Shown here piece after piece: positions 33,719-38,217 of a stretch of 64,000 nt of DNA. Position 1 is the stretch's first letter; each line of letters begins with the position of its first letter. Position numbers and translations under genes: made by a program. The notes beneath the pieces were generated by a model. It did not search any database and was not told where the DNA came from. It saw nothing but the letters and a program-made list of their open reading frames with translations. Source of the DNA: Verrucomicrobiota bacterium (GTDB lineage Bacteria; Verrucomicrobiota; Verrucomicrobiia; Opitutales; UBA953); NCBI GenBank assembly GCA_030830965.1, contig JAURLX010000030.1, forward strand, positions 1 through 64,000. Direction: 5' to 3'.

Positions 33719-34391
33719 ATCCGTGGTCAGGACCCTGGCCCTGGGCGTGACGCTCCGCGGCCGGCGCGTGCTCGACGGCGTCTCGTTCGAGGCGAGGCCC
33801 GGGGAGACGCTCGCGGTGATCGGGGCGAACGGGGCGGGCAAGACCACGCTGCTGCGCGCGCTCTGCGGCCTGGTCGCGCCCTCCGTCGGTGCCGTCGTCG
33901 CGGAGGCGCCCGGCGGGGTCGGCTACTGTCCGCAGCATCCGCGCTGCGCCTGGGATTTCACCGTCCGCGAGATCTGCCGGCTTTCGCAACACCCCTCGGC
34001 CGCGGAAGGCTGGTGCGAGTCGCTGGGCGGCGGGTCGCTGCTGGAGCGCAGAATCCTGACAGTCTCCGGCGGCGAGCGACGCGTGGTCCATCTCGCCCTT
34101 GCACTGGCGGCCCCTGCCGAGCCTTTCGGAAGCCTGGTACTGCTCGACGAGCCCACCGCCGGACTGGACGCCGTCCGCCGCGGACGGGTCGGCGACGCGG
34201 TGCGACGGCTCGCCTCGGCCGGCGCGACGGTGGTGACCGCCACCCATGACCTCGCCCTGGCCGAATCATCGGACCGCGTGCTGGCGCTTTCCGAAGGGCG
34301 CATGAACGCGCTGGGCCCGCCGGACGCCGTGCTCAGCGACGACGTCGTGCGCGAGACCTGGGGCGCGGGGCCCTCGCGCCTCCGTCGCTGA
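33711..34391 (+). CDS. ABC transporter ATP-binding protein (iron/cobalamin type)
   Basis: This 226-residue ATPase pairs with the FecCD permease. Walker A is GANGAGKTTLLRAL, the Q-loop region is GVGYCPQHP, the signature is TVSGGERRVVHLALAL and Walker B is LVLLDEPTAGLD, followed by the switch His in ATHDLALAE. The ATG at 33711 is preferred over the GTG three bases earlier because an AAGGAG ribosome site lies 5 bases upstream. Its last 59 bp overlap the convergent glycosylase gene. Confidence 0.88.
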   Translation: MTESVVRTLALGVTLRGRRVLDGVSFEARPGETLAVIGANGAGKTTLLRALCGLVAPSVGAVVAEAPGGVGYCPQHPRCAWDFTVREICRLSQHPSAAEGWCESLGGGSLLERRILTVSGGERRVVHLALALAAPAEPFGSLVLLDEPTAGLDAVRRGRVGDAVRRLASAGATVVTATHDLALAESSDRVLALSEGRMNALGPPDAVLSDDVVRETWGAGPSRLRR

Positions 34392-35268
34392 GCCCGGGCA
34401 GTCGTCCCGCCCGCGCGGCGGCGAAGAGGTGCTGCTGGGCGAGTCCGGCGGCCGGGCCGAAATGGACACGGCCGAACATCTCCATACGCGCAGCGTCCCA
34501 GCCTCCGAGACCGTAGGCCGAGGCCAGGGCCTGGACGATCCAAGTGTCGACAGGGAAACACTCGAGACGGGCGAAGCCGAACAACGCGACGCAGGCGGCG
34601 ACCTTGGGGCCGACGCCGGGCAGCGAACGCAGACGTTCCAGCAGAGCCGGAGTCTCGAGGCGAGACCAGCCATCGGCCCAGTCGGGAGAGGACGCGAGCC
34701 GCAGGGCCACGCCGCGCACATAGGCGGCGCGGTAACCCAGGGCGCAGGCACGCAGCTCCTTCTCTTGTGCACGGGCCAAGTCAGCCCAGCTGGGCAGCGC
34801 CGTATGACCGGCGCCCAGGGGCGGACCGAACCCACGGGAGAGCGCGGCCACCATCGAGCGGATCTGCTGGATACGCTTATTCGAGCTGCAGAGAAAACAG
34901 AGCAGGGCCTCCGAGGGGTCCTGACGCAGGATGCGCAGCCCTGGGTGCACCGCCATCGCGGCGCGGAGGACAGGGTCGGAGCGCCAGGGAAGCCCGTCGG
35001 CCAGGCGCTCCTGCTCGCCGGCGGCGTCGAGATAGTTCAGCAGGGCCGGCTCGGTCGCGACGTCGCCCGCAAGCCCGCTCCATTCCACCGTCCCACCGGA
35101 GGCCCGCAGACGGGCGACATGACGGCCGAAGACGCCCGTCCACTCCCCCGGGGCGTGCTCGACCCAGCGGAAGGACTGTCCGCCGTCGAGCTGTTCGGCG
35201 AGGGCGGAGGAAGACAGCCCGCGCGCGAGCGCCAAAGGACGCCAGGAAGTCCAGCCGGGGCCGGCCAT
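34333..35268 (-). CDS. OGG1-like HhH-GPD DNA glycosylase
   Basis: This 311-residue base-excision repair glycosylase resembles OGG1/AlkA. The OGG1-type N-terminal domain (LDGGQSFRWVEHAPGEWTGVFG) is followed by LLCFLCSSNKRIQQIRSMV and the helix-hairpin-helix LPGVGPKVAACVALF, whose Lys is the expected Schiff-base residue. The catalytic Asp is in FPVDTWIVQ. The likely substrate is 8-oxoguanine. The Arg-rich end (APRPRSRARRRR) reads antisense into the ABC ATPase gene. It is the last gene of the tRNA-Asn/small-protein/lipoprotein run, 3 bp after the lipoprotein stop. Confidence 0.85.
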   Translation of the reverse strand: MAGPGWTSWRPLALARGLSSSALAEQLDGGQSFRWVEHAPGEWTGVFGRHVARLRASGGTVEWSGLAGDVATEPALLNYLDAAGEQERLADGLPWRSDPVLRAAMAVHPGLRILRQDPSEALLCFLCSSNKRIQQIRSMVAALSRGFGPPLGAGHTALPSWADLARAQEKELRACALGYRAAYVRGVALRLASSPDWADGWSRLETPALLERLRSLPGVGPKVAACVALFGFARLECFPVDTWIVQALASAYGLGGWDAARMEMFGRVHFGPAAGLAQQHLFAAARAGRLPGLSDGGARAPRPRSRARRRR

Positions 35269-35271
35269 GGC

Positions 35272-35781
35272 TCAGCGGCCGTCGTCAGGCGTGCCCCAGA
35301 GGAAGCTGTGCCGGGCGGCGAGCGTGCGGCCCGAGGCGTCGACGACGGAAAGCCTCCAAGCGACCGGCCGCCAACCCTCGGGACCGGCCTGGGCGCCCGT
35401 CAGGCCGACCGCGAACTCTCCGAAAGGGGCTGCGGGAAGCCGAGTCAGCGCGAACACATGACGCTCGGCGGCGACACCCTCTTTTCGCACGACCTGCAGC
35501 ACCAGCGACGAGCCGGCGGGCGGGGCGAAGTCGAGCTGCACGAAATAATAATGCCCGGCGCGGGAGGAAGGATCGGTACGCAGGGAGACGTGGACACCGT
35601 CGTCTTCGGGACGGCCGAAAGTGTCGCCGATGCGGGCGACATCCGCCGGACCGCGGCTCTTCTCCGCGAGGAGCGCTATCCCGGGGGACTCCACGCCGAA
35701 CTCCGGACGGCGGTCGCAACCGACCATCAGCAGCGCCAGCAGGGCGGCCGTGGGCAGGGCGCGGCCGACGGCTCGCGTCAC
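35272..35781 (-). CDS. Hypothetical lipoprotein
   Basis: This 169-residue protein has a signal with a lipobox (TAALLALLMVGC, Cys near residue 22) and a soluble beta-rich domain (HYYFVQLDFAPPAGSSLVLQVVRKEG; WRPVAWRLSVVDASGRTL). No family was recognised. The GTG start at 35781 overlaps the TGA of the upstream 39-residue gene as GTGA, which both fixes the start and implies coupled translation. Confidence 0.65.
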   Translation of the reverse strand: MTRAVGRALPTAALLALLMVGCDRRPEFGVESPGIALLAEKSRGPADVARIGDTFGRPEDDGVHVSLRTDPSSRAGHYYFVQLDFAPPAGSSLVLQVVRKEGVAAERHVFALTRLPAAPFGEFAVGLTGAQAGPEGWRPVAWRLSVVDASGRTLAARHSFLWGTPDDGR

Positions 35782-35897
35782 TTCTTGGCCTTCTTCTTGC
35801 CGGCGGCGGCGCGGGCGGCGTTCACGCGGGCCTTGCGACGTTCGAGATACGCGCGACGGCGGCGGCGCTTGATGACCTTGTTGAACTGTTGTCCCAT
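35778..35897 (-). CDS. 39-residue basic protein
   Basis: ATG at 35897 opens MGQQFNKVIKRRRRRAYLERR, continuing with an Ala/Lys-rich end (GKKKAKK). About half of the residues are Arg or Lys, with an initial short motif that looks conserved rather than random. Its size and charge resemble small ribosome-associated or nucleic-acid-binding proteins, but no family can be named from sequence alone. It sits between tRNA-Asn and the lipoprotein, with which it overlaps by 4 bp. Confidence 0.7.
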   Translation of the reverse strand: MGQQFNKVIKRRRRRAYLERRKARVNAARAAAGKKKAKK

Positions 35898-35955
35898 GAT
35901 GACCCCATCCTCCCGCCCCCGGGACGAGGGTCAAGGCGAAGGTTGCCGCCCCTCC

Positions 35956-36030
<75 letters not shown>

Positions 36031-36146: not shown

Positions 36147-37127
36147 GTGCCTTCCCTGCGCTGGAACAGACTGCCAGACACGCCCAACGCTCCGGGCGCG
36201 GGAGGTGCCTTCGTCGGCGCGGCCGGTGAAACGCTCCTCTGTGCCGGAGGCTCGAACTACCCCGCCCGCCCCGGCTGGGAAGGCGGCCTGAAGGTCTGGC
36301 ATGATGAGGTGTGGACGCTTGCGACGACGCGCTCGCGCAAATGGACGCAGGCGGGAATCCTCCCGCGCGCGATGGGCTACGGCGTCGCCGTCAGCATCAG
36401 GCAGGGCCTGTTGATCGCCGGCGGCGCGGACTCCCACCGCCACTACCCCGACTGCTACGTACTCTCCCTGGCCGAGAAAGAGCTGCGCGTGCAGCCGTTT
36501 CCCTTCCTGCCGCGTCCGCTCGCCTACGCGGCGGGCGCTCTGGTCGGCAGCAAGGTCGTGATAGCGGGCGGCACGGACCGGCCCGACGCCGCAAGCGCGT
36601 CCTCGGCGGCCTACGCGCTGGACCTCGCGAACCTCAACGCGGGCTGGAAGGAGCTGCCCCTCTGCACGGGCGGAGGACGCATGCTGGCGCAGGCGGCCGG
36701 AACCAAGGACACCTTCTACCTCTTCGGCGGCGTCTCGCTCGCGCCCTCGGCGAAAGGCGTCGAGCGGGAGCATCTCGCGGACTGCCACGCCTTCACGCTC
36801 GGCAAGGAATGGAGGCGTATCGCCCCGCTGCCTCGCCCCTGCGCAGGCGCCCCTTCTCCGTGCCCGGTCCTGGGCGACCGGGTGCTGCTGGTCGGCGGGG
36901 ATGACGGAAGCCTGGCCGGAAAGGTGGAGGCGTCGCGGCATCCCGGCTACAGCAAGGCCGTGCTCGCCTACTCTCGCACGGCGGACGCCTGGTCGGAGGA
37001 GGGCGAGGGCTCCTGCGGACTGCTGTCGACCGGATGCGCCCGCTGGGGAGGCGGCTTCGCCGTGACCAACGGGGAGGCACGGCCCTTCGTGCGCTCGCCC
37101 GAAGGCTGGCTCATCAGGGAGGAATGA
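36147..37127 (+). CDS. NanM-like kelch protein (cyclically permuted mutarotase), cytoplasmic form
   Basis: This 326-residue kelch beta-propeller is related to N-acetylneuraminate epimerase NanM, which converts alpha- to beta-sialic acid. Blade motifs with GG pairs recur: LLCAGGSNYPARPGWEGG, LLIAGGADSHRHYPD, VVIAGGTDRPDA, FYLFGGVS, VLLVGGDDG. The start is GTG at 36147 and there is no signal peptide, unlike the next gene, so it probably acts in the cytoplasm. It opens the sialate cluster, 116 bp after tRNA-Asn on the other strand. Confidence 0.8.
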   Translation: MPSLRWNRLPDTPNAPGAGGAFVGAAGETLLCAGGSNYPARPGWEGGLKVWHDEVWTLATTRSRKWTQAGILPRAMGYGVAVSIRQGLLIAGGADSHRHYPDCYVLSLAEKELRVQPFPFLPRPLAYAAGALVGSKVVIAGGTDRPDAASASSAAYALDLANLNAGWKELPLCTGGGRMLAQAAGTKDTFYLFGGVSLAPSAKGVEREHLADCHAFTLGKEWRRIAPLPRPCAGAPSPCPVLGDRVLLVGGDDGSLAGKVEASRHPGYSKAVLAYSRTADAWSEEGEGSCGLLSTGCARWGGGFAVTNGEARPFVRSPEGWLIREE

Positions 37128-37173: not shown

Positions 37174-38217
37174 ATGCCCCGCCCCAGCGCATTGCCCTCG
37201 CTGCTTGCCGTCCTGACGGCCTGCCTTGCGGGGTGCGCGTCAGACCTGGCGCTGCCCGACCTTCCGGACCGGCACGGTCTGGGCGGCATGGCCGCGGCCA
37301 CGGTGCTCGCCGAGGATGGGACGGAGGCCGTCCTGGCCGCGGGCGGCTGCAACTTCCCGGACGGGCCGCCATGGAAGGGGGGCGCCAAGCGCTACTACCG
37401 GGACGTGCTGCTGCTCAGCCGTAGCGGCGGAGCCTGGAGGTGGCGGAAGATCGGCGAGCTTCCCCATGCGATCGCCTACGCCGCGTTCGCGCCCTCACCG
37501 GACAGAAAGTCCATGATCATCGCGGGCGGCTGCGACGAGAAGGTCCACCATTCGGCGACCTGGCTCGTGGGCGCCGACGGGAGCGTACGGAAACTGCCCT
37601 CGCTACCGGGGCCGCGCGCGTTCGCCGCCGGCGCTTCCGACGGAAGCACGCTCCTCGTGGCGGGCGGCTCGCACCGCCCGGATGCGACGCATGCCACCCT
37701 CCCCTGCGTCGAGCTCGACCTGACCGCGCCCGACAAAGGATGGAGACGGCGCGACGACCTCGGCACGTGGGGCATCCTGCCGCTCGTCGGACGGTCCGGC
37801 GCGAGCACCCTCGTCGCGTCGGGCTGCCGTCTCAAGGCTCAGGACGGCAAGCCCTTCCGCGTCTACGGCTCCTCCGTGCTGCACATGCGCGGCAGCGAAC
37901 GCAGGGAATCGTCGCTCGCCCGTCCCATCGTGGCCGCCGCCGGGCCGGGCATCCCCGCCGGAGGACGCCTGATCTTCGTGGGCGGCGACGACGGCGGGCA
38001 CTACCCCCGTCCGCCCGAGGACCACCCGGGACTCTCACGCGACATCATCGCTTTCGACGGCGTGACGCCGCGGGTGATAGGCCGTTGGCCCGGCCCCCTC
38101 GTGACCGCCCCGCTGGTGCGGCTCGGAGACACCCTCGTGACCGTCGGCGGAGAGGACCGGCCCGGCCACCGCACCGCCAAGGTGAGCACATGGACTCTGC
38201 CGGAGGCGTGGCGATGA
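37174..38217 (+). CDS. NanM-like kelch lipoprotein
   Basis: This 347-residue second NanM-like propeller has an N-terminal lipoprotein signal (LPSLLAVLTACLAGC). Blade motifs are AVLAAGGCNFPDGPPWKGG, SMIIAGGCDEKVH, TLLVAGGSHRPDA, LIFVGGDDGGHY and TLVTVGGEDRPG. As a lipid-anchored mutarotase it would act on sialic acid released outside by the sialidase, complementing the unsecreted copy. Its stop overlaps the MFS start by 4 bp (ATGA). Confidence 0.8.
   Translation: MPRPSALPSLLAVLTACLAGCASDLALPDLPDRHGLGGMAAATVLAEDGTEAVLAAGGCNFPDGPPWKGGAKRYYRDVLLLSRSGGAWRWRKIGELPHAIAYAAFAPSPDRKSMIIAGGCDEKVHHSATWLVGADGSVRKLPSLPGPRAFAAGASDGSTLLVAGGSHRPDATHATLPCVELDLTAPDKGWRRRDDLGTWGILPLVGRSGASTLVASGCRLKAQDGKPFRVYGSSVLHMRGSERRESSLARPIVAAAGPGIPAGGRLIFVGGDDGGHYPRPPEDHPGLSRDIIAFDGVTPRVIGRWPGPLVTAPLVRLGDTLVTVGGEDRPGHRTAKVSTWTLPEAWR

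Follow-up and report, generated by a model that had tools for sequence, protein, structure and literature searches.

Organisation of the locus

The 64,000-nucleotide stretch of Verrucomicrobiota DNA that was analysed as a whole (the window) contains a very short minus-strand gene, whose product, MGQQFNKVIKRRRRRAYLERRKARVNAARAAAGKKKAKK, is 39 aa long, consists of 44% Lys+Arg and has a calculated charge of about +15. Its own 1.8-Mb genome holds one match to this protein at E<=10. The gene and its surroundings are listed in Table 1. The original prediction described it as a complete short gene located between tRNA-Asn and a lipoprotein gene, and this description is exact: the frame has its own ATG and TGA, and the lipoprotein gene begins at its stop. 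The predicted GTGA overlap is also there, since the stop of the small gene shares these four letters with the GTG start of the 169-aa reading frame.

Table 1. Features at and around the gene of the small basic protein (window coordinates)
Feature	Position	Strand	Remarks
8-oxoguanine DNA glycosylase-like gene	34333..35268	minus	OGG_N, E 8.7e-11; third gene of the order-level cluster
169-aa lipoprotein-like gene	35272..35781	minus	GTG start; 4-nt overlap with the stop of the small gene
Gene of the 39-aa basic protein	35778..35897	minus	ATG starts at 35897, TGA ends at 35778
GAGGAT, -10-like hexamer	35907..35912	minus	16 nt after TTGACC, 9 nt before ATG
TTGACC, -35-like hexamer	35929..35934	minus	In 43/44 loci of the genus and sister genus; putative function
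tRNA-Asn(gtt)	35956-36030	minus	Upstream neighbour, 58 nt from the small gene
ORF	36147-37127	plus	Adjacent to the next ORF and with similar GG-containing repeats; kelch- or mutarotase-like by eye
ORF	37174-38217	plus	As above

The 169-aa reading frame carries a lipobox-like stretch, LMVGC. Its family is found in much of the order and is marked by motifs like LRTD..R.GLYF, GLTG.DW, VAWR, and SFLW; the two members searched had no Pfam match. The lipoprotein is predicted to be β-rich, with an Ig/FN3-like sandwich. The best Foldseek match to this model had an E of 0.006 (none <=0.001), with common β-sandwiches only, and the best VIA-align match was a GH2 domain with Z 8.1, where 7-8 is usual without a clear match. 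In one locus (L092) the lipoprotein is a part of a longer ORF.

The small gene is under selection

A protein of 39 residues might be mistaken for the product of a chance ORF, yet this one is encoded by a real gene. There are 57 ORFs of at least 25 aa overlapping the 5 kb around it, therefore ORF length alone proves nothing, and these numerous mechanical ORFs are what speaks for a chance frame in GC-rich sequence. The substitution pattern speaks against it. Comparison of the genus copies with the window's copy gave a mean pS of 0.53 and a mean pN of 0.10, so that pN amounts to roughly a fifth of pS. Among the 34 distinct genus sequences (561 pairs), changes at the codon positions 1, 2, and 3 numbered 1569, 1664, and 5860, a strong bias to the third position. 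These sequence comparisons show the gene to be under purifying selection within the genus.

The start position is kept as well. ATG is present at the corresponding place in all 98 order-level homologues whose loci were fetched from the listed matches. Among 40 loci from the class and phylum levels, the start is ATG in 36 cases, GTG in two and TTG in one, and that of L166 was misplaced by the automated assignment. With the amino acid sequence and the start kept across the phylum, purifying selection and fixed core residues (see below), a chance ORF has a practically negligible probability and was rejected. In a single genome (G417, locus L320) the frame is broken into two fragments located in different frames, by either sequencing error or decay.

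Distribution

The original prediction called for conservation of the reading frame in other Verrucomicrobiota. It is conserved there, and the gene proved to occur throughout the phylum, which is more than had been asked. Using the single sequence as a query, we found matches at E<=1 in 38 of 57 relatives and in 218 of the 372 order genomes; the window's own genome is counted in both cases, as are some weak matches. At the same threshold, a profile built from 32 order sequences (A1) matched 296 of the 384 genomes of the class and 220 of the 288 of the phylum, again with the window's genome and weak matches counted. The second profile (A3) was constructed from 80 diverse members of the same phylum. 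At E<=0.01 it matched 110 of the 145 phylum genomes searched, a count that includes the window's genome and the genomes which contributed rows and so match by construction. When A3 was applied to 36 genomes lacking an earlier match, nine were found at E<=1 and only three of them below 0.01.

An exact degenerate DNA pattern, which partly fixes residues 1-13, was also run on the contigs of 84,980 species. Diverged members are missed by an exact pattern, and the scan is a sample of the family. It found at least 119 stretches, and all 119 among the matches listed encode the family, two of them (L243 and L275) as judged from their translation. Tyr17 is shared by 116 and Arg20 by 117 of these stretches, and neither position is demanded by the pattern. 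Record titles of the listed matches name Verrucomicrobia, Opitutae, Akkermansiaceae (e.g., L194, L251, and L280), Pedosphaera, Methylacidiphilum, Lentisphaeria, and similar taxa, with three exceptions. One exception, L208, is titled 'Auribacterota'. This is a separate phylum, whose 44 genomes share none with the Verrucomicrobiota set; seven of them gave a match at E<=0.01, with two reaching only 0.001 and 0.0065. Readable Auribacterota members include MGRQYNRREKRTRKKQYIKRKKA and MSKPHRVVIKRIRRKKYLKRKKE.

Several record titles seem unreliable. L282 is titled 'Omnitrophota', but its genome groups with the Verrucomicrobiota phylum genomes, so the title misleads. The title 'Planctomycetaceae' of L307 looks wrong, as 27 residues are identical to the Verrucomicrobia record L252. 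We also doubt the 'Akkermansia muciniphila' titles of L214, L292, and L306, the last of which encodes 40 residues identical to those of the Opitutaceae-type L077. A virus-borne protein was considered and rejected: the sole viral-contig pattern match among those listed (L311) encodes something else.

Overall, the small basic protein represents a conserved, selected and mostly single-copy family spanning the phylum Verrucomicrobiota. It is found mainly in this phylum, in most sampled genomes, and is not universal. In several families of the order the gene was undetected in good genomes that look complete, and it therefore looks dispensable in some lineages; these absences suggest repeated loss.

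A short conserved core with a variable tail

The conserved core covers about 22 residues, M-G-[QK]-Q-x-N-K-x-x-K-R-x-R-R-x-A-Y-L-x-R-x-K, and consists of 44% K+R. In 117 distinct N-termini which were not found by the DNA pattern, M1, Q4, R13, Y17, and R20 are invariant, and variation was registered at K7 in one, at K10 in two and at N6 in seven. When the rows of the pattern scan are added (208 distinct N-termini, listed matches), Y17 varies in three and R20 in one. Conservation fades at about residue 22-26, and the sequence varies freely from about residue 26 onwards.

Most members are hardly longer than the core. Among 251 of them, 199 have at most 50 aa, often just 27-40 aa (the minimum is 27), and 43 exceed 80 aa. 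The long members carry Lys-rich or acidic tails, PAKKA/AAKK-rich in several cases (e.g., L160, L170, and L191). Seven loci (L046, L047, L050, L057, L071, L079, and L085) encode tails some 65-170 residues long, which have a DVLGPE-like motif in common and contain acidic stretches.

AlphaFold, run on the single sequence, returned one helix spanning residues 4-37 (mean pLDDT 83.6, pTM 0.42), so the core is predicted to be one basic helix. A helix-like period is also seen in the conservation pattern, but the signal is weak, with p 0.05 at 100 degrees and the peak at 110.

Neighbouring genes and the upstream region

The original prediction proposed a search for such products downstream of tRNA-Asn in other Verrucomicrobiota and regarded the protein as coupled to the lipoprotein. 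Both linkages hold locally, that to the lipoprotein also in much of the order. Same-strand tRNA-Asn is located upstream of the gene in 35 of 41 genus loci, and three of the six others have less than 150 nt of upstream sequence. Related genera contribute three loci with an inverted tRNA-Asn (L036, L037, and L056). Beyond the window's family the association disappears: tRNA-Asn was found within 1.5 kb in none of the remaining loci among the 98 of the order.

The GTGA overlap is present in every one of the 44 loci fetched from the window's genus and its sister genus, and a GTGA or ATGA end in nine of the other 54 order loci. Among the 98 order loci, 64 have a lipoprotein homologue downstream and 55 have the glycosylase. 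In family f14 (Opitutaceae-type, a label taken from record titles) this place is occupied by a rimO-like gene in 24 of 27 loci; radical-SAM/TRAM domains were found in the one rimO-like gene checked. At the class and phylum levels, the lipoprotein gene was not found in any of 40 loci, and a crude comparison based on picking the longest ORFs revealed no neighbour common to the whole phylum. As the linkages to tRNA-Asn and to the lipoprotein are confined to some lineages, neither neighbour defines the small protein, and a defining link to either of them was ruled out by the change of neighbours across families.

These data bear on the idea that the small protein is a partner or a leader peptide of the lipoprotein gene, so that either translation of the small ORF or its product serves the envelope lipoprotein. 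The invariable overlap in the two closest genera and the frequency of the lipoprotein homologue in the order agree with this. Elsewhere, though, the small gene persists next to rimO-like or unrelated genes, and it is the peptide sequence itself that is conserved across the phylum. Since the small gene is conserved without the lipoprotein, such partnership is largely refuted as a general function, and we regard it as very improbable. The overlap is probably a local operon arrangement and not a functional partnership.

In 43 of the 44 loci of the genus and sister genus, many of them close relatives, the upstream region contains TTGACC-N16-[GA]AGGAT (GAGACT in two), followed by 6-12 nt to the ATG. 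This configuration looks like an own promoter of the small gene with a very short or absent leader, going by the letters and their spacing. TTGACC by itself occurs 22 times in the window, the -10-like hexamer overlaps a GGAGGA Shine-Dalgarno-like string, and a sigma-70 promoter scan found 0 sites. Outside the window's family, 12 of the loci L045-L191 have a sigma-70-like match of at least 9/12 located 12 to 62 nt from the ATG, so that no common short leader emerged, and the arrangement described above was not seen in other families.

Comparison with known small basic proteins

Neither NCBIfam nor Pfam has a name for the family, and no relative of solved structure was found. In NCBIfam no match was found for the window protein at E<=10 or for 80 members at E<=0.1. 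Pfam gave only matches below the cut-off, both for the window protein and for the 80 members. One of them, CBFB_NFYA (PF02045), stays under its gathering cut-off: the first member scored 16.7 bits against 27, and eight of the 80 members matched at E<=0.1, with the best E of 0.001. PDB sequences contain no relative, the only match being a chance one to a methyltransferase at E 9.5; this means only that no detectable relative has a solved structure. The literature searched, with its limited share of subscription papers, showed no paper naming the protein, and we do not claim its absence from print.

The ribosomal protein bS22 is similar in kind. It is about 30 aa long, consists mostly of Lys and Arg, is helical, can go unannotated and sits in an rRNA pocket; in Borrelia, unannotated bS22 (61% Lys+Arg) was found in the ribosome by cryo-EM (PMC10618245). 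Membership of bS22/COX24_C (PF08213) was nevertheless rejected, as neither the window protein at E<=10 nor the 80 members at E<=0.1 matched this family. The same genome has a separate bS22/AURKAIP1-like PF08213 gene over the cut-off (C12:48443-48529, minus strand), therefore the small basic protein and bS22 coexist. At E<=0.001, PF08213 was detected in 35 of the 79 phylum genomes searched, 33 of them over the cut-off. The short basic helical ribosomal proteins eL41 and mS38 are described as bS22 analogues (PMC10618245). They differ in being eukaryotic or mitochondrial, and no PDB sequence match connects them with the small protein.

Thx is another very basic protein, with an MGK-like start. 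Its conserved motif probably differs from that of the small protein, and NCBIfam presumably contains a Thx model. PF17067 is RPS31, a 99-position family, and says nothing on Thx. Thx (S31) is tiny, has a central helix embedded in 16S rRNA, is patchily distributed by phylum, and its gene is mostly located apart from ribosomal genes (PMC3353972). The small protein, with its Verrucomicrobiota distribution, is unlike Thx in this respect.

CT421.2 is the third protein to be compared. The purified protein is said to bind DNA and RNA non-specifically. The published descriptions present it as a small PVC-restricted protein whose function is not known (PMC3444138; PMC2474590), about 53 to more than 80 aa long, with a 53-aa region common to the Chlamydiae, Planctomycetes, Verrucomicrobia, and Lentisphaerae sequenced at that time (PMC3444138). 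The window protein has only 39 aa, 199 of 251 members do not exceed 50 aa and conservation ends at about residue 22-26. As the short members cannot hold the 53-aa region, we take the family as separate from CT421.2; going by the description of CT421.2, identity of the two is unlikely.

CT421.2 is relevant to the main alternative, that of a non-specific nucleic-acid-binding or nucleoid-associated protein similar to histone H1 and perhaps related to CT421.2, in which the basic core would bind DNA or RNA and a Lys-rich tail would condense it. A PVC-wide protein of 53 to more than 80 aa, whose function is given as not known, does exist in print (PMC3444138). Another argument is provided by the 43 of 251 members longer than 80 aa, several of which have PAKKA/AAKK-rich tails. 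These tails are of what we take to be the H1-like type. This reading accounts poorly for the predominance of members with at most 50 aa, and for a core which is nearly fixed including the non-basic Q4, N6, and Y17; besides, conservation ends far short of the 53 residues conserved in CT421.2. We therefore consider it unlikely, while keeping it as the most serious rival.

A possible ribosomal function

The original prediction suggested RNA or ribosome binding. We infer such binding from composition, the predicted helix, the distribution and precedent. The small basic protein of Verrucomicrobiota would best be explained as a structural, lineage-specific ribosomal (rRNA-binding) protein of the Thx and bS22 type, a reading to which we give slightly better than an even chance. 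It is favoured since the protein is small, very basic, mostly single-copy, largely phylum-specific, predicted to be helical and resembles Thx and bS22. Of the 27 Opitutaceae-type loci, 24 have the small gene just ahead of a rimO-like one, which also argues for a ribosomal protein. RimO modifies ribosomal protein uS12. A further argument is that the protein stays while the neighbours change between families, as reported for Thx (PMC3353972).

Residues 4 to about 25 would form one positively charged helix. The nearly fixed residues Q4, N6, K7, K10, R13, R14, Y17, R20, and K22 could dock into an rRNA groove, as in Thx and bS22, and the variable tail would be a dispensable decoration. As the non-basic Q4, N6, and Y17 are nearly fixed, one specific binding site is favoured over general charge. 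Taken as a whole, the proposal is that Verrucomicrobiota ribosomes possess a structural protein, about 30 residues long and specific to the phylum, that has so far gone unrecognised. It would be a lone basic helix lying in an rRNA groove, would have been in the phylum since early with relatives in a neighbouring phylum, and would have been missed because its gene is short. This is tentative and falls a little below an even chance.

Several facts speak against a ribosomal protein. The gene has no ribosomal operon context and its neighbours differ between families. It was undetected in several families, no PDB chain matches the protein, and the conservation pattern shows helical periodicity weakly. 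Lys-rich tails of the PAKKA type would also suit a DNA-binding protein, whereas the acidic tails of other members fit neither the ribosomal nor the DNA-binding reading specially.

The protein may also visit the ribosome without being its structural part, as a transient translation or RNA factor acting in hibernation, in assembly or as a tRNA- or mRNA-binding chaperone. The same distribution and composition would suit such a factor, and so would the neighbouring tRNA-Asn in the window's family and the rimO-like gene in Opitutaceae-type genomes. On the other hand, no domain beyond one helix is predicted, and no neighbour is kept across the phylum, as far as the crude comparison goes. We find a transient factor rather improbable.

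Whether ribosomal or not, a core which is nearly fixed in most sampled phylum genomes likely matters for basic cell function. If the small protein belongs to the ribosome, it should be expected in any Verrucomicrobiota ribosome structure or proteome. The core may also serve as a short phylum marker sequence in metagenomes.
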